From the NCBI GenBank assembly GCA_026387935.1, contig JAPLKU010000003.1, positions 186,001-250,000 on the forward strand: a DNA stretch of 64,000 nt. The letters run 5' to 3'. The DNA comes from Gemmatimonadota bacterium (lineage in GTDB: Bacteria; Gemmatimonadota; Gemmatimonadetes; Gemmatimonadales; Gemmatimonadaceae). Below the pieces are notes generated by a model that made no database searches, had not been told where the DNA came from, and saw nothing but the letters and a program-made list of their open reading frames with translations. The translations under genes and the position numbers were made by a program. Of this stretch, positions 28,095 to 52,586 are shown piece after piece (position 1 is the stretch's first letter; every line of letters starts with the position of its first letter).

Positions 28095-28101
28095 CGAACC
28101 A

Positions 28102-28677
28102 ATGCACGCACGCGCGTTTGCCGTGGGCTGCGTTATTGTCGGCGCAGGCGCGGGCACGCGTTTCGGAGAACCCAAAGCTGGCGCGAGACTGCCCGATGGC
28201 CGTCGATTCGTGGACGCGGTTGCCGAAACGGCGAGAGACGCCGGACTCTCTCCGATCATCGCCGTGCTCCCGCCGGGAATTGCGGCGCCGGCCGGAACGA
28301 TCGGCGTGGTGAATGCCAAGCCGGAGGGGGAACAGGTGCTGAGCCTCCGACTTGGGCTGACCCAACTCGCAAACCATCCGGTCGTCGGCGCCTTCGCTTG
28401 GCCAGTGGACTTCCCGTTCGTCCAGCTCGAAAGCCTCCTCGCCGTGCTTGACGCTGCCCGACGGACCGGCGCGCCAATCGTGCGACCTGAAATTGGGACA
28501 GTACATGGCCATCCCGTCTTCTTTCATCGCGACACCTGGCGAGAACTGCTCACTGTGGCAGATGGCGGGGCACGAGCAGTTGTTCACTCGTACGGTGACC
28601 GGACGGTCCAGATCGCGGTGCGCGATCCGGGGGTACTTCGGGACATCGATCACCCGTCCGACCTCGCCGCCAGCTAA
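28102..28677 (+). CDS. MobA/MocA-like nucleotidyltransferase
   Basis: 191-residue NTP-transferase-fold protein. The nucleotide-binding start VIVGAGAGTRFGEPKAGA is a variant of GxGxSxRMGxxK, followed by PVDFPFVQLESL (metal-binding Asp) and GHPVFFHRDTWREL. Proteins of this type add CMP or GMP to molybdopterin for hydroxylase or oxidoreductase cofactors. The position directly after the FAD subunit suggests cofactor supply (MCD) for this molybdenum hydroxylase. ATG start, 7 bp after the previous stop; same operon. Confidence 0.82.
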   Translation: MHARAFAVGCVIVGAGAGTRFGEPKAGARLPDGRRFVDAVAETARDAGLSPIIAVLPPGIAAPAGTIGVVNAKPEGEQVLSLRLGLTQLANHPVVGAFAWPVDFPFVQLESLLAVLDAARRTGAPIVRPEIGTVHGHPVFFHRDTWRELLTVADGGARAVVHSYGDRTVQIAVRDPGVLRDIDHPSDLAAS

Positions 28678-28707
28678 CTGTCGCGTAACTGTCGTGTAGC
28701 TGTCGTG
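28675..28707 (+). promoter_or_regulatory. Pho-box-like array: three 11-bp tandem repeats upstream of the Pfa cluster
   Basis: TAACTGTCGCG (28675-28685), TAACTGTCGTG (28686-28696) and TAGCTGTCGTG (28697-28707) are contiguous, so CTGTCG recurs exactly every 11 bp, the core and spacing of PhoB-type binding sites. The array starts in the stop codon of the MobA-like gene and ends 115 bp before the pfaD start. A short palindrome (GCCGGT-TTT-ACCGGC, 28709-28723) follows at once. The remaining gap to 28822 holds an A8 tract and an AT-rich TATTTTTAT just before pfaD. Confidence 0.5.
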
Positions 28708-28822
28708 AGCCGGTTTTACCGGCGCCGGACTTCGGCATCGGGATCGAGGCGATCCGCAAGGGGAAAAAAAAGGCCGAATTGGCCGCTCGGAAAGGGCGTT
28801 CAGGCGGTATTTTTATGCTCCC

Positions 28823-30490
28823 ATGATCAGCAACGCAGCGACCCTCGCCCCGGTGTCGGTCGGCCGTCAGGCCGTCGGCCAGTTCATCCCCGCCATTGGG
28901 GAAGCCCCGGGCTTTGGTGATGCGGCCGTGCTCGAAGCACTCGAGCGCACCGATTCGCCTGTCTGGGTTGTCGGCGAAGAGACGCATGGTGGACGACGCA
29001 TGGGTGTCGCATTCGACGGCTCGCTCGACGGCAACGAGAGCAACATCGGATTCAGCGCATACGCGCTTCTCCCGGCGCTGCACGCTGAGTGGTTGGGCGA
29101 CCGCACGTTTGGCGAAGAGCATGGGTGCCGGTATCCGTACGTCACCGGCGCGATGGCCACGGGCATTGCCTCGATCGAACTCACCGTCGCCGCGGCGCGA
29201 GCCGGATTTCTCGCGTACTACGGCACGGGTGGCTTATCGTTCGCGCGCAGTGAAGAAGGCGTTGACGCGATCATGCAGGCGCTGGCTGACATGCCGGACG
29301 CCGCGTGGGGCGCCAATCTGATTCATTCGCCCGACGAACCGTCGCTCGAAGAGCGTCTCGTCGATCTCTATCTCGAGCGCGGCGTCACGCGCATCGAGGC
29401 GTCGGCCTTCATGCAGCTCTCGCCGGCCATCGTGCGCTACAGTGCGAGTGGCCTGCAGGTGGACGCCTGGGGACGGATTCATCGTCCGCACCGCGTGATG
29501 GCGAAGATCAGCCGGCCCGAAGTGGCGCGGCATTTCCTGCAACCACCGCCGGCGCAGCTGCTCGAGCAACTCGTGACGAGCGGAGCGCTCACGGCCGAAG
29601 AAGCTCGGCTCGCGGCGCTGCTTCCAATTGCCGACGATGTCACCTGCGAAGCGGATTCCGGCGGACACACGGATCGCCGCCCGCTATCGGTGTTGCTCCC
29701 GGTGATTCGCAGACTGCGCGACGACCTCACGCCGGCCGGTGGTTGGCCGCGCCCCGTGCGCATTGGCGCCGCGGGTGGACTTGGCGATCCTGAATCGGTA
29801 GCCGCGGCGTTCGCGCTCGGCGCGGACTACGTCGTCACCGGTTCAGTGAACCAGACAGCGTGCGAAAGCGGCACGTCCGACCTCGCGCGCGCGATGCTCG
29901 CGGAGGCGGGCTTGGCCGACGTGATCATGGCGCCGGCCGCCGACATGTTCGAACTCGGTGTTGAAGTGCAAGTGTTGCGCCGCAGCACGCTCTTTGCGCC
30001 GCGCGCGCGAAAGCTCTACGAGATTTACCGCCAGTACTCGAGCCTCGACGAGATTCCCGCGGAACTGCGCGAGCGGCTCGAGCGCGACATTTTCCGCGCG
30101 CCGCTCAATGACATCTGGACCGAATGTGTCCGCTTCTGGACGGCGCGCGACCCCGAACAGGTGGCGCGCGCCGAGCGTGATGCCCATCACCGCATGGCGC
30201 TGGTCTTTCGCTGGTATTTGGGCAGTTCCAATCGGTGGGCCCGCGAAGGCGTGGCTGACCGTCGCAATGACTATCAGATCTGGTGCGGCCCGGCCATCGG
30301 CGCGTTCAACGCGTGGACGGCCGGCACTCACCTCGCCGATCCCGCACGGCGCACGGTGCAGGAAATCGGCTTGAATCTTTTGGCCGGTGCCGTCCGCTGC
30401 ACGCGGGCGGCCCAGCTCCGTGCCGCCGGCGTCCCCGTGCCGGCCAACGCATTTCGTACTTCTCCACGACAGCTTGAGGCTTCGCGATGA
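28823..30490 (+). CDS. pfaD: PUFA synthase enoyl reductase (PfaD / Pfa1)
   Basis: FMN-dependent trans-acting enoyl reductase of polyunsaturated-fatty-acid synthases, 555 residues, within the usual 540-560. It has a nitronate-monooxygenase-like TIM barrel: GAMATGIASIELTVAAARAG (start of barrel), GVTRIEASAFMQLSPAIV, the flavin-binding and catalytic EADSGGHTDRRPLSVLLP, and GAAGGLGDPESVAAAFALGA with YVVTGSVNQ. The C-terminal PfaD-specific region contains FRWYLGSSNRWA and YQIWCGPAIGAFNAW. It is first of the pfa operon; its stop overlaps the next ATG (ATGA). No Shine-Dalgarno is seen; TATTTTTAT lies just upstream, so the message may be nearly leaderless. Confidence 0.93.
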   Translation: MISNAATLAPVSVGRQAVGQFIPAIGEAPGFGDAAVLEALERTDSPVWVVGEETHGGRRMGVAFDGSLDGNESNIGFSAYALLPALHAEWLGDRTFGEEHGCRYPYVTGAMATGIASIELTVAAARAGFLAYYGTGGLSFARSEEGVDAIMQALADMPDAAWGANLIHSPDEPSLEERLVDLYLERGVTRIEASAFMQLSPAIVRYSASGLQVDAWGRIHRPHRVMAKISRPEVARHFLQPPPAQLLEQLVTSGALTAEEARLAALLPIADDVTCEADSGGHTDRRPLSVLLPVIRRLRDDLTPAGGWPRPVRIGAAGGLGDPESVAAAFALGADYVVTGSVNQTACESGTSDLARAMLAEAGLADVIMAPAADMFELGVEVQVLRRSTLFAPRARKLYEIYRQYSSLDEIPAELRERLERDIFRAPLNDIWTECVRFWTARDPEQVARAERDAHHRMALVFRWYLGSSNRWAREGVADRRNDYQIWCGPAIGAFNAWTAGTHLADPARRTVQEIGLNLLAGAVRCTRAAQLRAAGVPVPANAFRTSPRQLEASR

Positions 30491-33400
30491 GCGGATCTCC
30501 AATCGCCGTTGTTGGCCTCTCGGCAATTCTCCCCGGCAGCGACGATATCGGCGCCTTCTGGGAGAACATCCGCGAGGCTCGCGACTGCTTCAGTGACGTT
30601 CCCGAATCGCATTGGCGAATCGAGGACTACTTCGACCCCACGCCACGCGCCAAGGACAAGACGTACGGCAAGCGCGGCGGGTTCATCAACGCGCAACCGT
30701 TCGATGCGCTCGGCTTTGGGCTGCCGCCCTCGTCGCTGCCCAGCACCGATGTCGCGCAGCTGCTCGCGTTGCTCGTCAGCCAGCGTTGCATTGCCGACGC
30801 CGACAATGGCAAGGCGTCCCGGTTCGATCGCAATCGCACCAGTGTGATTCTCGGCGGCGCTGCGACGACGGCGCTCGTCTCGCACATGTCGGGTCGCATG
30901 GCCCAACCGATGTGGCGTCAGGGCCTTCGCAATGCTGGATTTGACGAAGCCAGCGTCGAGCGCGCCTGCGTGGCAATCTCTGATCAGTTCGTGCCCTGGC
31001 AGGAGTCGACGTTCCCGGGCCTGCTCGGCAACGTCATCGCGGGGCGCATTGCAAATCGGTTCGACCTCGGGGGCACCAACTGTGTGCTCGATGCGGCCTG
31101 CGCGAGTTCGCTCGCGGCCGTCTCGATGGCGATGGATGAATTGCGCAGCGGAAAGTCCGACACGGTGATCACCGGTGGCGTGGACGCGCTGAACGACATC
31201 CTGATGTTCATGTGCTTTTCGCAGACGCCGGCGCTTTCGCTCAGCGGCGACTGCAAGCCGTTCAGCGATCAGGCCGATGGCACGATGCTCGGCGAAGGCG
31301 TCGCGATGCTGGCGCTGCGTCGGCTCGAAGACGCCGAACGCGATGGGCACAAGATTTACGCCACAATTCGCGGACTGGGATCGAGCAGTGACGGCCGCGC
31401 GAAGAGCGTGTACGCCCCGCGCCCTGAAGGGCAGGTGAAGGCGCTCGAGCGTGCGTACGTCGATGCCGGCTACAGCCAGGCCACCGTGGATCTCGTCGAA
31501 GCGCATGGTACGGGCACGACTGCCGGCGATGCCGCGGAAGTCTCCGCGCTGAAGAGTGTGTTCGGCGCGGTGGCGAACGGTCGCGAAGCGTGGTGCGCAC
31601 TCGGTTCCGTGAAGGCGCAGATCGGTCACACGAAGGCAGCTGCCGGTGCCGCAAGTCTCGTGAAGGCCGTGCTTGCGCTGCAGCACCAGACGCTTCCCCC
31701 GACAGCAAAGGTTAACAAGCCAAACCCGGCGCTCGGGCTCGAGGGCAGTCCGTTTTACCTGAGCGGCACGGCGCGTCCCTGGTTCAAGCGCGGCGATCAT
31801 CCGCGCCGCGCATCGGTGAGCAGCTTTGGCTTTGGTGGCAGCAATTTCCACGTCACGCTCGAGGAGTACACTGGGCCGAACGTCGCCGCGCGGCACCCGT
31901 ACGGTCCGGTGCAGCTCGTGCTCATTGGCGGGCCGGATGAGAATGCACTTCGTGCCGGACTCGCCGATTTGACCGCGCGCGTCAAGAACACGCCGCAGCT
32001 CGCGTCCTATGCACGCGAGTCGCACGCATCGTTCGATCACAAGGCGCCGATGCGCCTTGCGTTGCTTGTGAACGATTTCTCGGATCTTGTCGCCGCCGTC
32101 GCTGAGGGGCGCCAGGTGTGCGATAAGCCGGGTGATGTGCAGCGCACCCACCGCACAGTGCTGCGCCGTGGTACGCCGGCGCTTGCAGAGAGCGTGGCGT
32201 TCCTCTTCCCGGGTCAGGGCAGCCAGTACCTCGGCATGGGACGCGATCTCGCCTTGCATTTCTCAGAGGCGTTCGCGGTTTGGGAGCGCGCGGCACATCG
32301 CGTTGCCGACGCGGTCACCGATCTGGGCGACGTGGTGTTTCCGCGTCCAGCGTTTGAGCGCATCGAGCGCGAAGCGCATGAAGCACGGCTCCGCATGACC
32401 GCGTGGGCACAGCCGGCGCTTGCCGCCGCCAGCCTCGCGCAGCTCGCGTTGCTTGAGAAGATTCAGTTTGGTCCGAGTGCAGCGGCCGGGCACAGCTTTG
32501 GTGAACTCGTCGCATTGCATGCCGGTGGTGCGTATGACGCAGACACGCTGCTCGACCTCGCGCGTGCACGTGGTGAGGCAATGGCGTCCTGCGCCACGCC
32601 AACTGACGGCATCGCGATTGACGCGGGCAGCATGTTCGCGGTCGCGGGAGACGTCGTCACCGTGCAGGGATTGCTCGATCGGTTCGGCGACGGTCGCGTC
32701 GTCGTGGCCAATGACAATCATCCGCGCCAGACGGTGCTCAGTGGTCCGACGGACAGTCTCCGGGCATTCGGCGCCTCACTCACACAAGCCGGCCTTTCGC
32801 ATCAGGCCCTTCCGGTCGCGGCGGCGTTTCACTCGCCGCTCGTGGCGCCGGCCGCTGCGCAGTTTGCCGCCGAAGTGTCGGGAACCGAATTCGGTGGGCT
32901 GCACTTTCCGGTCGTGGCGAATGGCACGGCGCAGCCGTACGAGAACGATGTCGTCGCGGTTCGCGAACGACTCGCGCACCAGTTGGCGCATCCCGTGCGT
33001 TTCCGCGAGAGCGTCGATGCCCTCTACGAGCTTGGCTGCCGAGTGTTTGTCGAAGTCGGCGCCGGCAACGTCCTGTCTGGTCTTGTGAAGAAGTGTCTCG
33101 CCGACCGACCGCATGTGACGGTGGCGCTCGACACGCCGGGTGAACATGGCGTGCGCGCCTGGTGGATTGGCATGGCAGAGCTTGCGACGCTGGGGCTCGC
33201 GGTGAACCTCGCCGCGATTCAGCCGGGCGTGCCGGCATTCGACGCCGTGCCGGCGCCGCCGAGCGGCCCGGCCGTTGTCGCCGTCGGGGGTTCGAATCTC
33301 GGGAAGCCGTACCCACCGAAGCCCGGCGCGATGCCGGCATCGCCGGCGCCGACCGTGCAGCTGCCAGTCGCGCATCTGGCAGAGGCGGCGCCAGTCGACG

Positions 33401-34113
33401 CAAACGACATCACGTCTGAAGAATTTTTCGAAGAACCGATTGACATCACGGCGGAGCACGCGCTCTCGCCAGACTACGCCGAGTCCTATGACGGCGATAC
33501 CGAACTTGAGGTGTACGAGGACATGGACGATCAGAACTCATCGCTGCTGCTTGAAGCACAGCGACTGACACAACAGGCGATTCTCGACAGTTTCGCCATG
33601 ACGATGCGCGGCATCACTGGCAATGGCGATGCTCCGGCACCGACAATCGCGTCGCGCCCGGTGGTTCGCGTCGCGGCTCCCGCTCCCGTGCGCGCTCCCG
33701 TGCGCGCTCCAGCAGCGGCGCCCGTCGCCGCGCCGCCGGCGCCACACGCCGCCAAGGCGAACGGCGCGAGCCCGGCGGCGGCTCCGGCCCCGAAGCCTGC
33801 ACCGGTCGCCGCTCCAGTCGCTACTCCGGCTCCGGCCGCTGCATCGGCAGCTGACGGTGCGGCAATGGTGCTTGGTGTGATCGCCGAGAAGACCGGTTAT
33901 CCGGTTGACGCCCTCGCGCCGGAACTCGAGCTCGAAGCCGATCTCGGAATCGACTCGATCAAGCGCGTCGAAATTCTTGCGGCGCTGAGCGACAAGATGC
34001 CCGGGATGGACCCGAAGAGCATCGATCCGGCGAAGGTTCGTCGCGTGAGCGACCTCCTTGTGTTACTCGGGGAGGCGCCCCCCGTGGGCCCCAAGGGGCC
34101 GCTGGGCCGGTAG
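30487..34113 (+). CDS. pfaA: PUFA synthase PfaA/Pfa2, N-terminal part: KS-AT-ACP
   Basis: 1208 residues. Ketosynthase: Cys205 in DAACASS, His340 in EAHGTGT and His381 in GHTKAAAG, complete triad. Acyltransferase: FPGQGSQYLGMG near 573 and Ser670 in GHSFGE. Then an acidic linker, an Ala/Pro-rich linker, and one acyl carrier protein (residues ~1115-1195) with phosphopantetheine Ser1157 in DLGIDSIKRVEI. Known PfaA proteins continue ACPn-KR-DH; here the frame ends 13 residues after the ACP at TAG while the KR-DH part continues in the -1 frame (see 34086 and 34329). Only one ACP is present where most PUFA synthases have three to nine. ATGA overlap with pfaD. Confidence 0.93.
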   Translation: MSGSPIAVVGLSAILPGSDDIGAFWENIREARDCFSDVPESHWRIEDYFDPTPRAKDKTYGKRGGFINAQPFDALGFGLPPSSLPSTDVAQLLALLVSQRCIADADNGKASRFDRNRTSVILGGAATTALVSHMSGRMAQPMWRQGLRNAGFDEASVERACVAISDQFVPWQESTFPGLLGNVIAGRIANRFDLGGTNCVLDAACASSLAAVSMAMDELRSGKSDTVITGGVDALNDILMFMCFSQTPALSLSGDCKPFSDQADGTMLGEGVAMLALRRLEDAERDGHKIYATIRGLGSSSDGRAKSVYAPRPEGQVKALERAYVDAGYSQATVDLVEAHGTGTTAGDAAEVSALKSVFGAVANGREAWCALGSVKAQIGHTKAAAGAASLVKAVLALQHQTLPPTAKVNKPNPALGLEGSPFYLSGTARPWFKRGDHPRRASVSSFGFGGSNFHVTLEEYTGPNVAARHPYGPVQLVLIGGPDENALRAGLADLTARVKNTPQLASYARESHASFDHKAPMRLALLVNDFSDLVAAVAEGRQVCDKPGDVQRTHRTVLRRGTPALAESVAFLFPGQGSQYLGMGRDLALHFSEAFAVWERAAHRVADAVTDLGDVVFPRPAFERIEREAHEARLRMTAWAQPALAAASLAQLALLEKIQFGPSAAAGHSFGELVALHAGGAYDADTLLDLARARGEAMASCATPTDGIAIDAGSMFAVAGDVVTVQGLLDRFGDGRVVVANDNHPRQTVLSGPTDSLRAFGASLTQAGLSHQALPVAAAFHSPLVAPAAAQFAAEVSGTEFGGLHFPVVANGTAQPYENDVVAVRERLAHQLAHPVRFRESVDALYELGCRVFVEVGAGNVLSGLVKKCLADRPHVTVALDTPGEHGVRAWWIGMAELATLGLAVNLAAIQPGVPAFDAVPAPPSGPAVVAVGGSNLGKPYPPKPGAMPASPAPTVQLPVAHLAEAAPVDANDITSEEFFEEPIDITAEHALSPDYAESYDGDTELEVYEDMDDQNSSLLLEAQRLTQQAILDSFAMTMRGITGNGDAPAPTIASRPVVRVAAPAPVRAPVRAPAAAPVAAPPAPHAAKANGASPAAAPAPKPAPVAAPVATPAPAAASAADGAAMVLGVIAEKTGYPVDALAPELELEADLGIDSIKRVEILAALSDKMPGMDPKSIDPAKVRRVSDLLVLLGEAPPVGPKGPLGR

Positions 34114-34135
34114 CTGTTGCTACCCACCCAGCGGC
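34086..34135 (+). other. Candidate programmed -1 frameshift element between ACP and KR of PfaA
   Basis: Codons GGC CCC preceded by G form the heptamer G GGC CCC (34086-34092) in the zero frame, matching X XXY YYZ. Five nt later (34098) a stem-loop begins: GCCGCTGGG pairs with CCCAGCGGC (34098-34106 with 34127-34135), a 2x2 internal loop, then GGTAGC with GCTACC around a TGTT tetraloop. The zero-frame stop TAG (34111-34113) is in the stem. A -1 slip joins the ACP to the open KR-DH frame. A C6 run at 34078-34083 makes a sequencing error or real 1-base deletion the main alternative. Confidence 0.5.
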
Positions 34136-34328
34136 TGACCCTGTTGAGCGTCGTGTAGTCGAGTGGCTCCCCGTTGCAGCGCCGGGAAGCCCCGCGCGTC
34201 GCATCGGCGAATGCAGGAGCGTTGCGGTCGTTGGCGGCACGAGTGAGCTCGGCGAACGCCTTCGGCGGGCACTGAACGACCGCGGCATCGCGCTTACCCT
34301 CACTCCAGCGGCGAGCGCGGATGTCGTC

Positions 34329-36257
34329 GTGCTCGCCCACGCGCTCGGCACCGACGGTTCCGTTGACCGCGCATTCGCAACGCTGAGCGAGTTGGCCGGC
34401 CGCACCACGCCGCCGCGCGTGCTCGTCACGGCTGGAACACACTCGCGTGAAAGCGCGGGTCTCAACGGCCTCGTCAAGACGGCGGCGCGTGAGTGGAATG
34501 CCGAGTGGCTTTGTGTCTCAGTGGAAGACGCCGAGGCGTTTGCGTCGCCGCTCGCTGATGAGCTGGCCTACGGAGGCGGCGCACGCGAAGTCCGGATTGG
34601 TGCGCGCCGCGAAGAGCTCGTGCGTGTCGCCACGACGGCGTCAGGCCCGCTCCGCGTCGTCCCTGCTGGACCATGGCTGGTGTCGGGTGGCGCCCGCGGC
34701 GTTACGGCTACGTGCTGCATCGCACTGGCCAAGGCTGGTATGCGTCAAGTGGTGCTGCTCGGCCGCACCACTCTGCGCGATGAACCGGCGACCTGCGTGC
34801 ATGCTCGTACGGAAGCGGAACTCAAGCAGGCACTGATCGCGGCGGCAACAGGCAAGCCGAATCTCGCTGCCATTCAGCGCGAGGCGCGCGAGATTCTCGC
34901 GCTGCGCGAAGTGCGTCATACGATTACCCAGCTGAACGAGGCCGGCGCGCAGGTTCGCTACGACGCGGTGGACATCACGGACGCCGCCGCCGTCACCGCG
35001 CTTGCGGACGACGTGCGGCGTACATGGGGTCCGATTCGCGGCATCGTGCATGGAGCCGGTGTGCTCGCCGACAAGCGACTCGGCGAAAAGACGCCAGAGC
35101 AGTTCCACTCGGTGATGCACACGAAGATCGCCGGCGCGAACGCGCTGCTCACGGCATGCGCCAACGATCCACTCGAGATGATTTGCTTTTTCTCTTCAGT
35201 GGCGGCGCATAGCGGCAACGTCGGGCAGAGCGACTACGCTGCGGCGAACGCCATGCTCGACCAATGGGCCGGCACCGAAGCCGCGGCACGCGGCACCGAT
35301 TGCCGCGTCGTCAGCATCGCGTGGGGTCCGTGGGACGGCGGCATGGTGACTGCGGCGCTCGCGAAGCATTTCACCTCGCAGGGCATCGGCCTCATCCCGC
35401 TCGACGCGGGCGCGAACGCGTTCGTCCAGGAACTTCGCGCCGGATCGCATGTCCAGGTGCTGCTCGGTTGCGGCCTCGAGGGCGCGGAGCCGGTGCCGAA
35501 GACCGTCGTGCGTTTCGACTCGATGCGCGCGCCATACCTGCGCGACCATGCGATTGCCGGAACAATCGTCGTTCCGATGACGCTCGCACTCGACTGGCTG
35601 CTCGCTGCCGGCGCCCGCGAAGTGGGACCCAGCGTTGAACTTCGGGACATCACGCTGCTCAAGGGCGCGATTGCCACTGACGGCATGGCCGACCTGTTGC
35701 TCGCCGTGACGCCGGCAACCGAAGGCACCACTCGCACCGCAACACTCACACATCCCGACGGACGGCCGGCGTACCGCGCGTTCATAACGGCGGCGGCCGG
35801 CTCGACGCCGGCTCCGATTGCGATTCCGCAGCCATCGGGCGATCCGCTGCCTGACTGCTGCGTGGCGCCGTATGACGAAGCCCTCTTCCATGGTCCAGCG
35901 TTTCACACGATTCGCCAGGTGATCCGTTGCGACGCGCATGGCATCTCGGCGCGATTGACTACAGCCGGTGCAATGCGCTGGCCTGGCGGCTGGCAGCTCG
36001 ACCCGCTTGCCATGGACGGCGCGCTACAGCTGCTGCGGGTTTGGAGCTGGGCCGAGGATGGGCGCCCGAGTTTGCCAACGTCCATCGCGCGCTGCCGCGT
36101 CTGGAGCGAATGGCCAACGAACGGCGAAGTCGTCTGCGTACTGACGGCCAAACGCGAGAATGCCTTCCGCTTGCGCGGGGACGCGCAGTTTGTCGATCCG
36201 TCGACGGGACGCGCACTGGCGTCGCTCGCAGGAATCGTCATGCACGTGCAAGCCTAG
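34329..36257 (+). CDS. pfaA: PUFA synthase PfaA/Pfa2, C-terminal part: KR-DH (separate frame)
   Basis: Ketoreductase and dehydratase part of PfaA. From the GTG at 34329 there are 642 residues, but the same frame is open without ATG, GTG or TTG back past 34092 and encodes the KR structural subdomain (VAVVGGTSELGERLRRALN), so this is not a natural gene start. KR: NADPH motif VSGGARGVTATC near 118 and catalytic Ser290, Tyr303, Asn307. DH: His407 in DHAIAGTIVVP (HxxxGxxxxP) and Asp563 in LDPLAMDGALQ. All catalytic residues are intact, arguing that the protein is still made, most simply as a fusion with the upstream KS-AT-ACP by a -1 shift. The stop directly abuts the pfaC ATG. Confidence 0.88.
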   Translation: MLAHALGTDGSVDRAFATLSELAGRTTPPRVLVTAGTHSRESAGLNGLVKTAAREWNAEWLCVSVEDAEAFASPLADELAYGGGAREVRIGARREELVRVATTASGPLRVVPAGPWLVSGGARGVTATCCIALAKAGMRQVVLLGRTTLRDEPATCVHARTEAELKQALIAAATGKPNLAAIQREAREILALREVRHTITQLNEAGAQVRYDAVDITDAAAVTALADDVRRTWGPIRGIVHGAGVLADKRLGEKTPEQFHSVMHTKIAGANALLTACANDPLEMICFFSSVAAHSGNVGQSDYAAANAMLDQWAGTEAAARGTDCRVVSIAWGPWDGGMVTAALAKHFTSQGIGLIPLDAGANAFVQELRAGSHVQVLLGCGLEGAEPVPKTVVRFDSMRAPYLRDHAIAGTIVVPMTLALDWLLAAGAREVGPSVELRDITLLKGAIATDGMADLLLAVTPATEGTTRTATLTHPDGRPAYRAFITAAAGSTPAPIAIPQPSGDPLPDCCVAPYDEALFHGPAFHTIRQVIRCDAHGISARLTTAGAMRWPGGWQLDPLAMDGALQLLRVWSWAEDGRPSLPTSIARCRVWSEWPTNGEVVCVLTAKRENAFRLRGDAQFVDPSTGRALASLAGIVMHVQA

Positions 36258-39200
36258 ATGAGCGACTTCGCGCCGATCGCAATTGTCGGGCGCGGCTGCG
36301 TCGTGCCCGGGGCGAACGATCCGCGCACGCTCTGGGCGCGCGTGCTCTCCGGCGATGACCTCACGGGGCCGAGTTCCGCGGAGCGTTGGGGACTGGACCC
36401 GGGCCGCGTCTGCAACGATCCGCGCGAGCCGAGTGCGAGTGCGCGCGGCGGATACGTCACCGGTTTTGACGCGCTCTGGCGTCACGACACCTTTGCGCTG
36501 CCACCAGAAGCGCTAGTAGGAATACCGGAAGGCTGGCGCTGGCTCATGCACGCCTGTGCGCAAGCGCTCACCGAGGCCGGAGTCGGACTCGACGGTGGTG
36601 CGCGCGCAGGTCTCGTGTTGGGAAGCCTGGGATACGCAACGCGTGAGTTTGCGGATGCGGCAGCGGCACGATGGTGCGGCGCCGAGGGCGGACCGCATCC
36701 TGCACTCGAAGGGCAGACCGGCGCGCTGCGGTGGGCGAGCGACGCGTGTGGTGTGCACGGGCCGCGCGTCGCGCTCGATGCAGCATGCGCGTCTGGACTC
36801 TACGCACTGAAGACCGCCTGCGACCTGCTGCACGCGCGGCGCGCTGATGTGGTGCTTGCTGCCGGCCTCAACGCGGCCGACGATTTGTTCCTCCATATCG
36901 GCTTCACGGCGCTCGGCGCGCTGTCGCGGCGCGGCCGAAGCACGCCGCTCAGTACCGAAGCCGACGGACTCCTGCCTGCTGAGGGGGCGGCAGTCGTCGC
37001 GCTCAAGCGACTCGATGATGCCGTCGCCAATGGCGATCATATACTCGCGATTGTCCGTGGCGTCGGACTGAGCAATGACGGACGTGGCCCAGGGTTACTG
37101 GCTCCGACCACAGCCGGCCAGCAGCGCGCGATTCGCGCGGCATGGGCGGCCTCAGGACTCGACCCGGCCACGCTTGACTACCTCGAGTGCCACGCGACGG
37201 CGACACCCGTCGGCGATCGTGAGGAGATCCTCAGCGTGCGCGCGGTGTTCGGCGATGCGCACCGGCTGCGCCTGGGTTCGCTGAAGGCGCAGCTCGGCCA
37301 TCTGATCACCGCGAGTGGGGGAGCCGCGCTCATCAAGCTCTGCGGCGCGTTCGAGGCGGGAAGCCTGCCGCCGGCACCGAGCATCGCGTGCGAACTGCCG
37401 TTGCCCGAGATCGCCGAGAGCGAATTGGTCCTGGAGCGCACGGCCATTGGATGGCAGCCTGGTGAGCATGCGCGGCGCGCGGCGGTGGATGCGTTCGGCT
37501 TTGGCGGTTGCAACGCGCACGCGATTCTCGAAGGGCCTGAGGGCGTTGAGGCGCTCGTTGCGAAACGCCGCGGTCGTCCGAAACCGGTCGTCGCACCGGC
37601 CGTCGGCGACGATCTCGCCATTGTGGCATGTGAGCTCTCGGTTGGTGAGGCAGGCGATTCCGCCGCGATCCTGCGCGTCCTCATGGGGCGTGAAGCGCCA
37701 AGCCGCCGCGTGCGCGATTTGCAGCTCGCCGTTCGCGGCCTTGGCTTTCCTCCTGCCGATCTTCGCCACGCCCTGCCGCAGCAATTGCTCGTATTGCGTG
37801 CGGCGCAGCGACTCAAGCCCGCGATCGAAGGCCTCGACCGCTCGCGCGTCGGCGTGTTCATTGGTGCCGACGTTGATCCTGCCGGTGCCCGTCACGGCTG
37901 CCGGTGGCGGCTCGACCATTGGCTGCAGCATGCGGCCACAGCAGCCGAGCGCGATGCCGTCGTGCCAGCGCTCGAAGCGGCGGGGGTCCTCGGCACCATG
38001 CCGAACATGCCTGCCAATCGCATCAACAGCGCTCTCGACCTTGGCGGCGCGGGACTTGTCCTGAGCGAAGGCGAGAACTCCGGCGGCTGGGCGCTTTCGC
38101 TCGCAGCCGACGCTATCGCGCGCGGAGAACTCGACGCAGCCCTCGTTGGCGCCGTTGATGCATCCGGTGGCGCGTTCGGTGACGACCCGGAGCGCGCTGA
38201 TGCTGTTGTGCTGCTGCTCGTCGTTGCCGGCTCGAAGGTCGGTGATCGGGCCGTGCTCGCCCGCATTGCGCGAACTTCCGAAGTCGATACCGTACCCGAC
38301 GTACTCGCGCCGTGGATGGACACAGGCATTGCGCGCGAGCTGGTGGATATCGGCGTCGCTGCGTTGTGCTGTCATCATGCACTGCTGCCGGGCACGCCGG
38401 CCCTGCCATGGACTGGAGCGAATCGATCCTGTCAGTTGCATGGCTGGGACGTCTTCGCGACGGGGAATGCCGCCGGCGTCAGTGACGAGCCAGCAGCCGC
38501 GCTTACGCTTGCGCCGGATCGCGCCTCCATTGGGCAAAAGCGCATGGGAGAAGTCGCGTTCGTATTCACAGGCGCAGCCGCCGCGTACCCTGGCGCAGGC
38601 CGAACGCTCTGGCAGGGGATTCCCGAGCTCGCCGCCGAGTTACGCGCACGCGCACCGAATCTGACCAGCGCGCTCCCACGACTCGTCAGCGGCGCACCCC
38701 TGTCATTTCTCGACCAGCTCCAGCTCGCGACACTGCTGAGCCAGTCGCATGCGCGACTCCTTGCGCTCCTCGGCGTCAGGCCCGACGCGACGCTCGGATT
38801 GTCGAGTGGCGAGACGAACGCACTTCTCGCGAGTGGCGCATGGACCGACCCAGATGGCCTTTTCGCGGCCGTTTCAGAATCGGGGATGTATGACCTGCAC
38901 CTCGCCGGCGAGCATCGCACGCTGCGCGCCTCGTGGGGCGTGACTGCCGATTCCACGGTGAACTGGCGCTGCTACCGTGTGCTGCACTCTGTGGACGCTT
39001 TGAAAACGGCTATCGCCGCCACGACTGGCCAGGTGCCGCGCGAGGTGGTGCGACTACTGATCGTCCATCACGCCAACGACGTGGTCATCGGCGGAAGCGA
39101 CGAAGCCTGCCGCGCACTGATCGCGAAACTCGGCGCGCGTTCAACGCCGCTCGGCCATGACCTCCTGGTCCATTGCCCGGAGCTTGAGCCCTTTGCCGCT

Positions 39201-42200
39201 GAGTGGTATGCGGTGCACCACCGGCCGACGCAATCGATCACCACGCCGCGCCTCTACGCGAACGCAATCAATGCGCCGTTCGTTCCCACGCGCGAACGAT
39301 GCGCAGAGTTGCTGCTTGCCCAGGCGCGCGACACCGCCGTGTTCAGTGCGACGGTCGAGCGGGCCTACGCCGACGGCGTGCGTGTGTTCATCGAGATGGG
39401 ACCGCGCAGTGCCTGCACCGCATGGATTGGTGAGATTCTCGGCGCGCGTCCGCATTGCGCGGTGTCGCTGGATGGTTCACGTGGATCGCTACGCGATATC
39501 GCCGCTGCGTTAGCGCAGCTCATTGAATCCGGCGTGGCGGTGGACCGTGATCGGTGGAATTCGTGGATGTCGCAACTGCGCAGCATTGCCGATATCGCGG
39601 CTTCGGCGGACGGCATGCTCGCGCTTGCCGGTCATCGCTCGTTGCCCGAGTTCCACGCGCCGAATTGCACCACGCTTGCTGTACCTGCAGCGCCCAAGCT
39701 CGCGCCGGTGCTGCCCGACCTGTTGCACGTCGTACAGGCGCCGGCGCTGATCATTGCGCCTGAGCCGGTGAAGCGGCAGAAGATTGTGCACGCACAACCG
39801 ACGAGTCTGGCACTCGCCGCGTTGGCAGACACGCAGGCCGCGCTGCTCCGTGTGCACGACATCCTTGTGTCGCAGGCGAAGGACCGGTCGCTGCGCGTTT
39901 CTCGCAAGGGACAGGTCGCGCGCCCGACTCACGCCGTACCCGATGTCACTCCGCCAGTCGTCGCTGAAGCGCCAACGCCGCGCGTCTATCCCGGACCGCA
40001 GTTCGATCGCGCGCAACTCGAGCATCTCTCGCATCGACGGATCTCGGAAGTCTTTGGCCCGGCATTCGCCGGGCAAGATGACTATCCGCGCCAGGTGCGG
40101 ATGCCGATGCCTCCGCTCCTCCTCGCTGATCGTGTGCTCGGCATTGATGCGATTGCAGCTTCAATGAAGACGGGCACGATCTGGACGGAGACGGATGTTC
40201 GCGAGGACTCTTGGTATTTGCAGGATGGTCGCATGCCCGCCGGCATTCTGATTGAAAGCGGACAAGCCGATCTGCTGCTTATCAGTTGGCTTGGGATCGA
40301 CCTCACGAATCGCGGAGAGCGGATCTACCGGCTGCTCGGTTGCGAACTGACCTTCGCCGGCGGACTTCCATCCGTCGGCGAAACATTGCACTACTCGATT
40401 GCGATCGACTCACATGCACGGCATGGCGACGTCGGGCTCTTCTTCTTTCATTATGACTGCACGGTGGACGGCGCACTTCGCCTCCGAGTCAAGGAAGGTC
40501 AGGCGGGCTTCTTCACCGACGCCGAGCTGGCCGACAGCGCCGGCATTCTGTGGAATCCACTGGAAGACCTGCCGGATGCATCTGCGCCGATTGCAGGAGC
40601 AAAGCCGGGGATCGACGTGCGTTCCGCGTACGACGAAGCGGCGGTGAGTGCTTTTGCCGCCGGCAATATTCTTGAAGCGTTCGGCGATTCGTTCAAGCGA
40701 GGCGCCGGTCACACGCGCACGCCGCGGATTGCCGGCGGGCGGATGCAGTTGTTCGCCCGCGTGGACGAACTCGATGCAGACGGAGGACCGTGGAAACGCG
40801 GCTATCTGCGGGCGAGTCTGCCGATTACGCCCGACTCCTGGTTCTTCGCCGGCCACTTCCATAACGATCCGTGCATGCCCGGCACCCTGATGTTTGAGGG
40901 ATGCCTGCAGACGATGGCGTTTTACATGGCCGCGCTGGGCTACACGGTGGATCGCGACGGCGCCGTATTCGAGCCCGTGCCCGACCGCCCGTATCAGCTG
41001 CGGTGTCGCGGTCAGGTCACGCCAAAATCGAAGATGGTGACATACGAAGTGTTCGTCGCCGAGTTGCACGACGGACCGGTGCCGACGCTTGTTGCCGATT
41101 TACTCTGCACGGTGGACGGTCTCAAAGCGTTCCACTGCGGCCGAATGGCACTGCGCCTCACGCCCGACTTTCCACTCGGTGCCCGCGAACTCGCCGCGAT
41201 GGATGCGGATGTTGGAGAGGTCGCAGAGCAGAATGGTTTCCGGTACGGACAAGCGTCGCTGCTGGCGTGCGGCAGTGGCGATCCGGTCGCTGCGTTCGGC
41301 GAACTCTATTCGTCGCTTCCACCTGGCCGCCGAGTTCCGAGGCTTCCGGGCCCGCCCTATCATTTTATCAGTCGGGTTCGCTCGCTGAGCCATGCGCCTG
41401 GTGGCATGCAGGCCGGTGTGGTCGCCGAAACTGCGTACGACATCCCGCCCGATGCGTGGTACATCGACGCGCACCCAACCGGACAGATGCCCGCCTGCGT
41501 GCTTATCGAGGCAGCGCTGCAGCCCTGCGGTTGGCTGGCGTCGTACGTCGGTTGCGCCGTCGTTGAAGCAGACGAGGTGTACTTCCGGAATCTCGACGGC
41601 AAGGGTGTGCTGCACCGGCCCGTGCGCGCCGATGACGGAACGCTCGTCGTGAAAGCAAAATTAAAATCGCTGTCCCGCGCCGGTGGCATGACGCTCGTGT
41701 CGTTCGATGTGGCCTGCACCGTTGGCGACGAAGCGATCTACGACCTCACCACGACATTTGGATTTTTTCCCAAGGCCGCGCTCGAAGGCCAGGCCGGGCT
41801 CACGGCCACGGACGAGCAGCGCGCGTGGATGTCGCTGCCCGGAACGGTGGACCTGCTCGCAACACTCGACGCGGCGTCGCGCGAACTGCTGCCCGCGCCG
41901 ATGCTCCGCATGTGCGAGCGCGTCACGCACCGCAATGTGGCCGACGACGGCAGCGCGCAGCTCCGCGGCGAAAAGACTGTTCGTGCCGACGAGTGGTTCT
42001 TCAAGGCGCACTTCTTCCAGGATCCGGTGCAGCCGGGTTCGCTCGGCATTGAAGCGTTGGTGCAGCTGCTGCAGGCGCATCTCCTGCTCTCCGGTGCCAA
42101 GGCTGCGATTCCCGACGGCGCATTCGCCGACCTCTCGGCGACGACACCGGGCACGTGGCAGTTCCGCGGCCAGGTGCTGCCGCACGCCAAACAGGTGACG

Positions 42201-44405
42201 CTCACGCTCGACGCTGAGCCAATCGAGCGCACGCCGTCGGGTTGGCGCGCGCGTGCGGCGGGCTCCGTCTGGGTGGACGGGCTTCGCATTTATGGCGTGC
42301 AGGGACTGAGCGTGTCGTGGGAAGGAACGCCCACCGACGGCAACTCACTGCGCTTCGATGCCGCCACAGAACCGTGGTGGAACGATCATCGTCCCACCTA
42401 CACGGTTCCGGTGGTTCCAGCGATGGCACTCGCCAGTCGGGCACTGTCGCTGGTGGCAGATGGCCAGAAGGTCATCGGCATCGAAGGCATGACGTTCCGA
42501 CGCTGGCTCTCGCTCGAATCGGCACGAACGCTTTGTGTTGAACGAGCGGGCCAGAGCTTCACGCTGGTGGATACCGACCGCGGCGATATCGTCTGTGACG
42601 GCACGTTGATGGTTGGAACGGCGTACCACAGCGCCCCGGCGCCGGTCGCGCCCCTCGGCGCCGACGCGGTGCCGCTCGCCAACCTCTATGACAACGGCGC
42701 GCTGTTCCACGGTCCGGCGTATCAGCGCCTCCGCGGTGGCCGCCGGTCGGCACAGGGCGCCGACGTCACGATCGCGTTTGAGACTGCGCTCGACACGCGC
42801 GAGCGCGTGTCGCATTTCGTCCTCGACGCGGCGCTACACGCGGTACCGCACGACGCCATGCAGGAGTGGTTCCCTGACGTGGCCCCCGGACAGATCGCGT
42901 ATCCGGCGATGATCGAGCGCGTCGAACTCTTTGCCGATGCGCCGAGCGACGGCGAATGTGAAGTACGTGTGCGTCCTGCGGGTCTGCGTGAAGGGTCGGC
43001 GCGGTATCCGCGAATCCATGCGCAACTGCTGCTTAATGGATCGGTGTGGGCCGAGCTGACGCTGGTCGAGGTCTGCCTCCCGGCCACGCGCCTTGGCTCA
43101 CTGAGCGGCACCGCTCGGCGAGCGTTCCTGCGCGACGGCGAGTTCGTGGCCGGCGCGCGCCTGAGTGACGAAGCGTCCGGTGTAAGCACGCTCACCCCCC
43201 GCATCGTAACTCAGGCTGATTGGCTCGCAGGCACTGTGGATACTGTGTACGGACTACCCGCGAGCTCACCAGATCGCATCGCGACAATCGCGGCCACTGA
43301 GCATGCGGCACAGCGGATCGCGGTGCATCCCCGCGCGATTGCCATTGGCCAGAATGGAACGGTCTCGACGCCGGCGCTGCCGCTCCTCGAGTACCAGGTG
43401 GCGATCGAACGATCGGGCCGGTCAGTAACCGTGCGCGACGTGGCACCACCGGCCGTCGATATCGCACGAATTCTGAAGTGGTGGAACGACACCGATTGGC
43501 AAAGCGCGAGTCCCGATATCCGCGCGCTTTTCATGGCGGCCACCGCACAGTTCGTGAGCGGCGTGCGCCTGCTGGATCCGGCGTCGCGCGAGACGATCGC
43601 GACAGAGCCGATTCTGCTGCTCGCCAACCATCAGGTCGCCATCGAGTCCGCACTCGCGGGGATTGCGCTGGCACCGATACTCGGCCGACCGCTCCTCACC
43701 GTGGCGAAAGCGGAGCATCGCAGCACCTGGGTCGGCCGGCTTGCGCTTCAACTGAACGATGCGCGCCGTGGCGACGCGATCATTTTCGTTGACCGTACGC
43801 GCCAGGAAGAGATGCTCGGCCATCTGCAAACGATGGGACGCGTCGCGCATTCGGGCGCCCGCGCGCTGTTGGTCCACGCTGAAGGCACACGCTCGCTCGC
43901 CGGCAGCCAACCCGTGACAACGGTGAGCGCCGTATGGAGCGACCTCGCAGTGCAGGCGGGCCTCACCATCGTGCCGCTTCGTTTTGCGCGCGGCTTGCCG
44001 AGCGCAGGTGTGGATGTCCGCAAGGACTTCCCCGTTGGATATGGCGCGCAGGAACTCATCCTCGGCCGGCCGATTTCGGGAGCATCATTGGCGGCACTGC
44101 GCCTCGATCAGCGGCGCACGCGCGTGCTGGATGGATTCGCCGAACTCGACGCCTTCGATGGCGAGCCGCGCGGTGATGCAGCCCTTTCCGCGCAGGTCGA
44201 GGCCGCGTGTGCGAAGTGGTCGCTCGACGAAATGCGGGCCGTGTTTCTTGTTATGCAGGCGCGCGCGGCCGGCTGGGCGCTCGACGCGAACGGGCTGCCG
44301 ACCGACGCATACGCCGCTGCGGACGAACGGCATCCATTCTGGGCCTGGTTCCACGGCCCAGCGGCAAACGCGGTGCGTGTAGCGCAGCGCGACAGCGCGC
44401 AGTGA
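36258..44405 (+). CDS. pfaC: PUFA synthase PfaC/Pfa3: KS-CLF-AT-DH-DH-DH-acyltransferase
   Basis: 2715 residues. KS: Cys177 (DAACASG), His312 (ECHATATP, a variant of EAHGTGT) and His348 (QLGHLITASG). CLF-like degenerate KS ~450-690, with LGGAGLVLSEGENSGG at ~595 where the Cys would be. AT ~765-1090, Ser849 in GLSSGE. Two FabA-type double-hotdog DH units ~1240-1990: His1533 in GHFHNDPCMPG and His1918 in AHFFQDPVQPG. PKS-type DH ~2030-2300: His2044 in NDHRPTYTVP and VLDAALHAV. C-terminal PlsC-type acyltransferase from ~2440: NHQVAIE (His2458, x4 then Glu instead of Asp) and HAEGTRS (Glu2542). This order, including the terminal acyltransferase, is that reported for myxobacterial Pfa3. GTGA overlap with the next gene. 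Confidence 0.92.
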   Translation: MSDFAPIAIVGRGCVVPGANDPRTLWARVLSGDDLTGPSSAERWGLDPGRVCNDPREPSASARGGYVTGFDALWRHDTFALPPEALVGIPEGWRWLMHACAQALTEAGVGLDGGARAGLVLGSLGYATREFADAAAARWCGAEGGPHPALEGQTGALRWASDACGVHGPRVALDAACASGLYALKTACDLLHARRADVVLAAGLNAADDLFLHIGFTALGALSRRGRSTPLSTEADGLLPAEGAAVVALKRLDDAVANGDHILAIVRGVGLSNDGRGPGLLAPTTAGQQRAIRAAWAASGLDPATLDYLECHATATPVGDREEILSVRAVFGDAHRLRLGSLKAQLGHLITASGGAALIKLCGAFEAGSLPPAPSIACELPLPEIAESELVLERTAIGWQPGEHARRAAVDAFGFGGCNAHAILEGPEGVEALVAKRRGRPKPVVAPAVGDDLAIVACELSVGEAGDSAAILRVLMGREAPSRRVRDLQLAVRGLGFPPADLRHALPQQLLVLRAAQRLKPAIEGLDRSRVGVFIGADVDPAGARHGCRWRLDHWLQHAATAAERDAVVPALEAAGVLGTMPNMPANRINSALDLGGAGLVLSEGENSGGWALSLAADAIARGELDAALVGAVDASGGAFGDDPERADAVVLLLVVAGSKVGDRAVLARIARTSEVDTVPDVLAPWMDTGIARELVDIGVAALCCHHALLPGTPALPWTGANRSCQLHGWDVFATGNAAGVSDEPAAALTLAPDRASIGQKRMGEVAFVFTGAAAAYPGAGRTLWQGIPELAAELRARAPNLTSALPRLVSGAPLSFLDQLQLATLLSQSHARLLALLGVRPDATLGLSSGETNALLASGAWTDPDGLFAAVSESGMYDLHLAGEHRTLRASWGVTADSTVNWRCYRVLHSVDALKTAIAATTGQVPREVVRLLIVHHANDVVIGGSDEACRALIAKLGARSTPLGHDLLVHCPELEPFAAEWYAVHHRPTQSITTPRLYANAINAPFVPTRERCAELLLAQARDTAVFSATVERAYADGVRVFIEMGPRSACTAWIGEILGARPHCAVSLDGSRGSLRDIAAALAQLIESGVAVDRDRWNSWMSQLRSIADIAASADGMLALAGHRSLPEFHAPNCTTLAVPAAPKLAPVLPDLLHVVQAPALIIAPEPVKRQKIVHAQPTSLALAALADTQAALLRVHDILVSQAKDRSLRVSRKGQVARPTHAVPDVTPPVVAEAPTPRVYPGPQFDRAQLEHLSHRRISEVFGPAFAGQDDYPRQVRMPMPPLLLADRVLGIDAIAASMKTGTIWTETDVREDSWYLQDGRMPAGILIESGQADLLLISWLGIDLTNRGERIYRLLGCELTFAGGLPSVGETLHYSIAIDSHARHGDVGLFFFHYDCTVDGALRLRVKEGQAGFFTDAELADSAGILWNPLEDLPDASAPIAGAKPGIDVRSAYDEAAVSAFAAGNILEAFGDSFKRGAGHTRTPRIAGGRMQLFARVDELDADGGPWKRGYLRASLPITPDSWFFAGHFHNDPCMPGTLMFEGCLQTMAFYMAALGYTVDRDGAVFEPVPDRPYQLRCRGQVTPKSKMVTYEVFVAELHDGPVPTLVADLLCTVDGLKAFHCGRMALRLTPDFPLGARELAAMDADVGEVAEQNGFRYGQASLLACGSGDPVAAFGELYSSLPPGRRVPRLPGPPYHFISRVRSLSHAPGGMQAGVVAETAYDIPPDAWYIDAHPTGQMPACVLIEAALQPCGWLASYVGCAVVEADEVYFRNLDGKGVLHRPVRADDGTLVVKAKLKSLSRAGGMTLVSFDVACTVGDEAIYDLTTTFGFFPKAALEGQAGLTATDEQRAWMSLPGTVDLLATLDAASRELLPAPMLRMCERVTHRNVADDGSAQLRGEKTVRADEWFFKAHFFQDPVQPGSLGIEALVQLLQAHLLLSGAKAAIPDGAFADLSATTPGTWQFRGQVLPHAKQVTLTLDAEPIERTPSGWRARAAGSVWVDGLRIYGVQGLSVSWEGTPTDGNSLRFDAATEPWWNDHRPTYTVPVVPAMALASRALSLVADGQKVIGIEGMTFRRWLSLESARTLCVERAGQSFTLVDTDRGDIVCDGTLMVGTAYHSAPAPVAPLGADAVPLANLYDNGALFHGPAYQRLRGGRRSAQGADVTIAFETALDTRERVSHFVLDAALHAVPHDAMQEWFPDVAPGQIAYPAMIERVELFADAPSDGECEVRVRPAGLREGSARYPRIHAQLLLNGSVWAELTLVEVCLPATRLGSLSGTARRAFLRDGEFVAGARLSDEASGVSTLTPRIVTQADWLAGTVDTVYGLPASSPDRIATIAATEHAAQRIAVHPRAIAIGQNGTVSTPALPLLEYQVAIERSGRSVTVRDVAPPAVDIARILKWWNDTDWQSASPDIRALFMAATAQFVSGVRLLDPASRETIATEPILLLANHQVAIESALAGIALAPILGRPLLTVAKAEHRSTWVGRLALQLNDARRGDAIIFVDRTRQEEMLGHLQTMGRVAHSGARALLVHAEGTRSLAGSQPVTTVSAVWSDLAVQAGLTIVPLRFARGLPSAGVDVRKDFPVGYGAQELILGRPISGASLAALRLDQRRTRVLDGFAELDAFDGEPRGDAALSAQVEAACAKWSLDEMRAVFLVMQARAAGWALDANGLPTDAYAAADERHPFWAWFHGPAANAVRVAQRDSAQ

Positions 44406-45136
44406 ACGCGACACGGCCGGCGGGGCCGCTCAGCGTCCGCCTCGGAATGGACGCGCTTGCCTTGGTGGTGCGACCCACGCTGAACGTCCTGATGAATCGG
44501 ACATGGGAGGGTCTCGAACATCTCCCGCGCGGCGGATTCATCATGTGCCCGAACCATCTGACGGAAATCGATCCGTTCCTGATCGGCCATATGCTGTACA
44601 GCAACGGCATCATTCCGCACTTCCTTGCCAAGCATTCGCTATTCCAGATTCCCGTGCTCGGCGCGTGGTTGCGCTGGGCGGGACAGATTCCGGTTGATCG
44701 CCGCGGTGGAGCGACGGCACTTGAGTCGCTCGCCGTTGCGCGGCGCGTGCTCGATCGCGGTGGGGCCATCATCGTCTATCCTGAAGGGACTTTGACGCGC
44801 GATCCAGCCCTATGGCCGATGCGCGGCCGCACTGGAGCGGCACGACTCGCGTTTGACACGCAAGCGCCGGTGATCCCTGTCGCGCACTGGGGCGCACACG
44901 AGCTATTGCCCCAGTATGCGCGGCGCGTCAGACCCTTCCCCCGAAAGACTTCTCGCGCGTCGATCGGTCCGGCGGTTGATCTCGACGACCTGCGGGGGCG
45001 TGGCATCGATCGCGCCATGCTCGAGACCGCGACCGACCGTATCCAGGACGAGACGACGGCGCTCCTCGGCATACTTCGCGGCGCCACGCCACCGGCGGTT
45101 CGGTTCGAGATGGCCACCGCGCGTTCACTCTACTGA
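44402..45136 (+). CDS. PlsC-type 1-acylglycerol-3-phosphate acyltransferase
   Basis: 244-residue acyltransferase with the canonical motifs that the PfaC-fused domain lacks: NHLTEID (H-x4-D), FLAKHSLFQIPVLGAWLRW, PVDRRGG and YPEGTLTRD. It should esterify an acyl chain to lysophosphatidate. The GTG overlaps the pfaC stop (GTGA), placing it in the pfa operon, and it is the third acyltransferase-type gene or domain in the window. It may have specificity for the synthase product, moving it to the membrane lipid; that is inferred from position only. An internal ATG at 44447 is an alternative start. Confidence 0.88.
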   Translation: MNATRPAGPLSVRLGMDALALVVRPTLNVLMNRTWEGLEHLPRGGFIMCPNHLTEIDPFLIGHMLYSNGIIPHFLAKHSLFQIPVLGAWLRWAGQIPVDRRGGATALESLAVARRVLDRGGAIIVYPEGTLTRDPALWPMRGRTGAARLAFDTQAPVIPVAHWGAHELLPQYARRVRPFPRKTSRASIGPAVDLDDLRGRGIDRAMLETATDRIQDETTALLGILRGATPPAVRFEMATARSLY

Positions 45137-45152
45137 CGGTCACGCGAGTCTC

Positions 45153-45188
45153 GACCCCTTGATTCTCGTCCGGAGATTCAAGGGGGTC
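45153..45188 (+). terminator. Strong hairpin at the end of the pfa operon
   Basis: GACCCCTTGATTCTC pairs with GAGATTCAAGGGGGTC over ~14 base pairs with one T-T mismatch and one bulged G, loop GTCCG. It is 16 bp after the acyltransferase stop and is followed by AATTCTTTCC, a weak T tract. Likely transcription terminator for the operon, or a barrier between the convergent operon and the PPTase gene. The rest of the 270-bp gap (45137-45406) shows no gene. Confidence 0.55.
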
Positions 45189-45406
45189 AATTCTTTCCGC
45201 GGGGGACAAGCAGGTTTCGGGTCGTCGCGCACCGCATGGGCGGCATGCTGACCGCCACGTGGTTGTTGCGGCACGATCCCTGAACACTCCGCTGAGTTGC
45301 CCTGCCCTCGTGGCCTGCGCTGTGGCGCCGACGAGGCGAGTGCCGAACGCCGAACACCTCGAAATTATTCAGCGCGGCGCGGGGCTCGACGCCACACTGC
45401 GCTTCA

Positions 45407-46150
45407 TCACGAGCTGACGAGCGCGCCAGTCCAGCGGAGGCAATGCACGCTGGAGATTCCGCCGCGCACCGCTATCGCGCCGGCCATTGAAGGTGCGGTC
45501 GCGAGAGGACGTGTTGTCCAGTCGCCGACGGTTCCGTACGACGGCGGTACGCGTCGCAATTTCGGCGCAGCACGGCCATCAATGCGAAACTCGACCTCCG
45601 AGAGCGGCACGGTGAGCCCGTCGCCGGCAGCCTTGAGCATCGCCTCTTTGTGCGCCCAGAGCGCGAAGAAGGCGGACTCCCCGAGCGATTCCACGCTGGC
45701 ACTCTCTGCTTCCGTGAAGAAGCGACGTGCGATGGCTATGCGATCAACCGTTCGCGCTTCGTTCTCGACGTCGACGCCAACGTCGCCAGCGCGGGTCACC
45801 GCTACGGCGAGCACCGATCCCGAGTGCGCCACGCTCACGGAGAGTGGCGGCGCCTCACCGGATTGGTCAATCACCGGCTTCCCTTTTTCGAGGAGTCGAA
45901 CGGCCACTCGGGCCGCCGGAATATCGAGATACATCCCGACGAGCAGTCGGAGGGCCGATCGCCCGCGCACGAACGCGTCGCGGCGGCCCGGCGCCAGCAT
46001 ACGAGTCGCCTGCGCACGCTCCTCGCTCGACAGCACATCGGCCGGCGGCCACGGCGATGCGGCTGACAGATCCTCACACCAGACGTGCACTTCTCCGGCG
46101 CCGAGCGGCGGAACGACCGATACGGCTCGCCACGAATCGTCAAACGTCAT
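45407..46150 (-). CDS. pfaE: Sfp-type 4'-phosphopantetheinyl transferase (PfaE-like)
   Basis: 247 residues. Core motifs of Sfp/PfaE-type PPTases: RSALRLLVG near 64, LSVSVAHSGSVLAVAV, the Mg-binding GVDVE at 125-129 and WAHKEAMLK at 165-173. It transfers phosphopantetheine from CoA to the ACP serine, needed for any PUFA synthase. It is convergent with the pfa operon and separated by 270 bp, as PfaE often is in or near pfa clusters. The function for this ACP is inferred from proximity; it could also serve other carrier proteins. Confidence 0.88.
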   Translation of the reverse strand: MTFDDSWRAVSVVPPLGAGEVHVWCEDLSAASPWPPADVLSSEERAQATRMLAPGRRDAFVRGRSALRLLVGMYLDIPAARVAVRLLEKGKPVIDQSGEAPPLSVSVAHSGSVLAVAVTRAGDVGVDVENEARTVDRIAIARRFFTEAESASVESLGESAFFALWAHKEAMLKAAGDGLTVPLSEVEFRIDGRAAPKLRRVPPSYGTVGDWTTRPLATAPSMAGAIAVRGGISSVHCLRWTGALVSS

Positions 46151-46165
46151 TCAACCGGCCGCCGA

Positions 46166-50310: not shown

Positions 50311-50321
50311 ATCGCGTTTGT

Positions 50322-50489: not shown

Positions 50490-50521
50490 CCGTTCTGAAT
50501 AACCAACCAAGTAATCAAGCA

Positions 50522-52572: not shown

Positions 52573-52586
52573 TCGCCGGTACATCG

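Follow-up and report, generated by a model that had tools for sequence, protein, structure and literature searches.

The sequence of the PUFA synthase locus analysed here suggests that production of its subunit Pfa2 involves programmed -1 ribosomal frameshifting, giving KS-AT-ACP and KS-AT-ACP-KR-DH proteins, and we put the probability of this reading at roughly two in three. A broader proposal, probable to a slightly lesser degree, is that the subunit stoichiometry of the PUFA synthase is set by a -1 frameshift between ACP and KR, which would be conserved across two phyla and would have moved with the cluster. The locus lies in a 64,000-nucleotide stretch of a Gemmatimonadota genome (contig JAPLKU010000003.1), hereafter the window, and its features are collected in Table 1. 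Two relatives, the Acidobacteriota MAG SJ750 and the genome G410 of the same order, serve for comparison throughout.

Table 1. Features of the pfa locus and of the ACP/KR junction, in window coordinates
Feature	Coordinates	Strand	Basis
Inserted segment, missing from three same-genus genomes	28596..46211		flanks close together in G003, G016, G006
pfaD / pfa1: enoyl reductase (FMN, NMO-like), 555 aa	28823..30490	+	TIGR02814 621.6 bits, PF21607
pfa2 zero frame: KS-AT-ACP, one ACP, 1208 aa, stop TAG 34111-34113	30487..34113	+	Pfam, NCBIfam, sequence
Shine-Dalgarno-like GGAGG, 10 nt before slippery heptamer	34071..34075	+	sequence; 9 nt before in both relatives
Proposed slippery heptamer G_GGC_CCC	34086..34092	+	in-frame X_XXZ_ZZN rare; C_CCY in all three genomes
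Junction hairpin, 5 nt after heptamer, zero-frame TAG in inner stem	34098..34135	+	predicted folding, -32.0 kcal/mol
pfa2 -1 frame: KR-DH, 715 codons, GTA 34110 to stop 36255-36257	34110..36257	+	PF08659, PF14765, PF21089
pfa3: KS-CLF-AT-DH-DH-DH(PKS-like)-AGPAT, 2715 aa	36258..44405	+	Pfam, NCBIfam
plsC-like acyltransferase, NHLTEID and PEGT motifs	44402..45136	+	PF01553 E 1.9e-26
Sfp-type 4'-phosphopantetheinyl transferase	45407..46150	-	PF01648 E 6.6e-14, NF042922

An earlier note on this DNA had described a complete Pfa-type locus with the myxobacterial pfa1(pfaD)-pfa2-pfa3 order and readable catalytic motifs. The Pfam and NCBIfam profiles recover all of the named Pfa domains at 28823-46150, and the catalytic motifs can be read in the ORF translations. 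The Pfa-type identity and the gene order are likewise borne out; as in Aetherobacter and Minicystis, the AT lies within Pfa3 and an AGPAT at its C terminus (PMC8436480, PMC4882568). PfaD scores well above the NCBIfam cut-off (621.6 against 449 bits for TIGR02814) and matches the solved PfaD 6lkc with an E value of 2.5e-145 in phmmer, and the KS-AT region gives 899 bits with PfaA, compared with 531 for the next-best family. Pfa3 is composed of a KS, a KS-like CLF, an AT, FabA-like DH stretches, a weak PKS-type DH and a C-terminal acyltransferase, and its homologues are 57-62% (G410) and 60% (SJ750) identical to it. As read from the sequence, pfaD and pfa2 overlap in an ATGA and pfa3 and plsC in a GTGA, and the ATG of pfa3 lies directly 3' of the KR-DH stop. 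In the window, as in G410 and SJ750, Pfa2 has a single ACP. PUFA synthases are described as carrying two to more than ten ACPs (PMC4882568); a single ACP is also found in many related loci, e.g. in Streptomyces, so that the ACP number is a variable rather than a strict feature.

The description of Pfa2 as KS-AT-ACP-KR-DH stands for the domains and falls for the single ORF, because KS-AT-ACP and KR-DH are encoded in different frames, and the locus can be called complete only if a -1 frame change connects ACP with KR. The KR-DH part is in the -1 frame relative to KS-AT-ACP, and this frame is open from 33909 to 36257. Correspondingly, the omega_3_PfaA profile (TIGR02813) is matched at one end by KS-AT and at the other by KR-DH (280 bits), in ORFs of different frames. 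Both SJ750 and G410 have the break at the identical position and in the identical direction, at CGGTAGC. The junction is carried by these three genomes only, of which SJ750 and G410 belong to the same order.

The beginning of the KR frame behaves as coding sequence. In the 16-17 codons that follow the break, the differences at codon positions 1, 2 and 3 are 5, 3 and 11 between the window and SJ750, 4, 4 and 9 between the window and G410, and 2, 2 and 8 between SJ750 and G410. Judging from this codon pattern, purifying selection acts on the KR frame in the three genomes from the zero-frame stop on (from 34110 in the window), upstream of any usual start; the VERR at its beginning precedes every usual start in all three. 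In the window, the first ATG, GTG or TTG of this frame is at 34329, which is codon 74 counted from the GTA at 34110 and is located inside the KR domain. These three codons are absent up to +219 in the window, +60 in SJ750 and +51 in G410, and the window frame is also free of CTG, ATT, ATC and ATA up to +93.

The junction itself has a similar layout in the three genomes: in SJ750 and G410, GGAGG is followed after 9 nt by G_GAC_CCT and after a further 5 nt by a hairpin, with the same six codons from the slip codon to the stop. GGAGG occurs about 0.3 times per kb in the loci. Using the motif rules for slippery sites from a study in E. coli (PMC4066793), we found in-frame X_XXZ_ZZN heptamers at 8 of 5185 codon pairs (0.15%) of the pfa ORFs in the window, and C_CCY at 0.35-1.1% of codon pairs. 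Judged by the E. coli rules, C_CCY is weak as a slip site; six tetramers, C_CCC and C_CCU among them, shift in this organism when a stimulator is given (PMC4066793). A perfect heptamer conserved in all three genomes is ruled out, since the G_GAC_CCT of SJ750 and G410 retains just the C_CCU tetramer.

The spacer of 5 nt can be compared with the 5-9 nt that is usual between slip site and structure (PMC5009743). In 40-nt windows, the predicted hairpin has an energy of -32.0 kcal/mol (z -6.0) in the window, -25 to -26.5 kcal/mol (z -3.5) in SJ750 and about -32.5 kcal/mol (z -4.2) in G410; in longer 75-nt windows the junction hairpins are less exceptional, with z of -1.1 to -2.2. The window hairpin is the most stable of the 16,274 40-nt windows in the 16-kb locus, that of SJ750 is tied first in its contig, and that of G410 is second in its stretch. 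When stem strength is considered relative to each locus's own genes, the window, SJ750 and G410 rank 1, 4 and 3 among 56 loci. The outer stem GCCGCTG/CAGCGGC is common to the window and SJ750 despite a one-base offset of its 5' arm against the reading frame, which points to selection on the RNA rather than on the peptide. A repeated genomic hairpin element was also considered and rejected, since the sequence occurs once within the window. Transcriptional slippage was discarded likewise, there being no long A/T run.

From these data we tentatively outline the following course of translation. Some ribosomes would translate KS-AT-ACP and halt at the TAG at 34111, releasing the short form. Others, paused by the SD-like sequence and the strong hairpin, would slip back by one base on a proline codon, for which the G_GGC_CCC at 34086-34092 is the candidate, and would then read through KR-DH to give the fused KS-AT-ACP-KR-DH. 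The slip peptide predicted in the fused product is ...EAPPVGP-QGAAGPVAVATHP... Presumably, the short form would serve, for example, to raise the ACP:KR ratio in a synthase with one ACP. Two reports (PMC5067506, PMC4882568) describe a PUFA yield that rises with ACP number; given this and the single ACP of the clade, we speculate that extra KS-AT-ACP could supply ACPs.

That the KR frame is entered by frameshifting rather than by unusual initiation is an assignment made from sequence, and the main competitor is the production of two proteins by termination and reinitiation: ribosomes would stop at the TAG, restart on the overlapping GTA (GTAG) and make a separate KR-DH protein. We regard this as unlikely. 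It would account for a GTAG that is identical in the window, SJ750 and G410, and a weak SD-like sequence (AAGGGG/AGCAGG) lies about 8-10 nt upstream of the GTA. In two unrelated loci, moreover, pfa2 has been split independently at the ACP/KR boundary with ordinary overlaps, and GTG or TTG starts occupy the place of the GTA: a GTGA with a strong SD in a Myxococcales MAG (L064, 7645-9913) and a TTGA in Mycobacterium simiae (L085, 14588-17186). GTA, however, is not known as a start codon. The other operon junctions that we read use ATGA, GTGA or a plain ATG, and a hairpin of -32 kcal/mol over the codon would be expected to hinder initiation, not to help it. Ordinary translational coupling at the ACP/KR junction is ruled out because, unlike in L064, L085 and the other operon junctions, no usual start is present.

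It is very improbable that KR-DH instead begins at an internal usual start, producing a truncated KR. GTG 34329 is indeed the first ATG, GTG or TTG of the KR frame in the window, but the first usual start differs among the three genomes, and the first part of the frame evolves as coding sequence. Moreover, 55 homologues conserve KR residues 14-73, which form ordered strands and a helix. In the AlphaFold2 model of the KR (pLDDT 93.5), which matches solved ketoreductases over the full length, order begins at residue 12-13, and a start at codon 74 would lose two strands and a helix and cut a third strand.

The least credible reading is that of faulty assembly or gene decay, with KR-DH not made or the true gene an ordinary fusion: the assemblies are drafts and ACP and KR are fused in 65 other surveyed loci, but the same -1 break with CGGTAGC is found at the same place and in the same direction in three separately assembled genomes of two phylum-level groups, which largely rules out an assembly error, the window and SJ750 being merely about 66-73% identical in DNA around the junction, the KR frame being under purifying selection, and long intact ORFs lying on either side. 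A further -1 break between ACP and KR was seen in a Polyangia MAG (contig L188, about 1100-1190), in which C_CCA_AAA ends the ACP ORF and the first start is an ATG at 1183. This break may be an error, as another contig of the same MAG (L042) is at about 1x coverage.

Programmed frameshifting, as proposed for Pfa2, has its closest parallel in the dnaX-type -1 frameshift, which shares with the window an SD-like sequence some 10 nt upstream of the slip site, a heptamer, and a simple hairpin 5 nt after it. The window differs from dnaX in its GC-rich slip site ending in a proline codon (CCC or CCU), in a shift that would give the longer product, in the zero-frame stop inside the hairpin, and in that the shift here is a prediction from sequence. 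The -1 frameshift of the carboxysome gene csoS2 (PMC5009743) is similar in concerning a bacterial cellular gene, in giving a long and a short protein, and in its 3' stem loop; it differs in that the shift yields the short form and in the protein family.

The region from pfaD to the PPTase gene is a single insertion of about 17.6 kb, since its flanks are adjacent in genomes of the same genus. In G003, window positions 27208-28595 and 46212-47988 are collinear and separated by 183 bp, the arrangement in G016 and G006 is similar, and the two flanking genes are 0.6-0.7 kb apart in three more genomes of the genus (G015, G013 and G008). On the right flank of the insertion, an S15 peptidase gene is followed by a SufB-SufC-SufD-aminotransferase (SufS-like) operon (48877-54361). 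In 17 other genomes of the genus and in the rest of the family sample no PfaD was detected; one genome (G032) gave a weak match below the cut-off.

The earlier note had regarded the locus as a notable occurrence should the host belong to the Gemmatimonadota, and its gene order as myxobacterial-like. The occurrence in this class is not unique: pfaD exceeds the protein family's cut-off in 22 of 394 genomes of the class, the window's included, and the others belong to other clades. As for kinship, the PfaD tree places the nearest relatives in the Acidobacteriota, not the myxobacteria. The closest PfaDs are those of SJ750 and G410, with 70-71% identity, and the three form a clade with an SH-aLRT support of 100. 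Group searches confirmed that the phylum of the window differs from that of G410. Searches for further clade members covered 162 genomes from the Acidobacteriota order, 396 from its phylum and 395 from the phylum of the window, and yielded G410 and SJ750 alone.

Pfa clusters are widespread (PMC3098273). Within the class of the window, genomes of another family carry different pfa clusters (e.g. L112, L114, L116 and L119), which likewise consist of pfaD, KS-AT, KR and KS-CLF-AT-DH genes, whereas their PfaDs are merely about 46-56% identical to that of the window and fall in other clades of the tree. The ACP/KR split is absent from every readable locus of this family. Given the different set of pfa clusters in this family, the class probably acquired Pfa synthases on more than one occasion. 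A five-ACP Pfa cluster was also encountered in a MAG labelled Klebsiella pneumoniae (L108), which is probably a mislabelled bin.

The characterised systems nearest in organisation are the myxobacterial Pfa1-Pfa2-Pfa3 synthases of Aetherobacter and Minicystis (Type L of Shulse and Allen), which have the same pfaD-first order with KS-AT-ACP-KR-DH next, and a Pfa3 of KS-CLF-AT-DH-DH-DH'-AGPAT with an internal AT as in the window. The window departs from them in the conserved -1 break in pfa2, the single ACP, the presence of the PPTase and plsC genes at the locus, and its Acidobacteriota kin. By analogy with such systems, the most likely product would be a long-chain PUFA, i.e. an EPA-, DHA- or ARA-like acyl chain, which the AGPAT and PlsC would transfer to phospholipid. 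A product other than membrane PUFA, such as a specialised lipid or hydrocarbon, seems rather unlikely. Specialised lipids are indeed products of Pfa-like synthases in other bacteria (PMC13291983), as is a C31:9 hydrocarbon in some marine bacteria (PMC4882568), but no PKS/NRPS partner genes were found adjacent to the cluster, the AGPAT and PlsC point to phospholipid, and Pfa3, with its FabA-like DHs and its AT, corresponds to the myxobacterial type that produces EPA/DHA.

In the literature searched, in which few subscription journals were covered, no programmed frameshift has been reported in a polyketide, fatty-acid or PUFA synthase. If the frameshifting proposed here holds, genome mining for such enzymes currently misreads the sequence at these points, and heterologous expression with a 'repaired' frame would fail or be mis-scaled. 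It would also represent a natural means of setting the ACP number per reducing unit.
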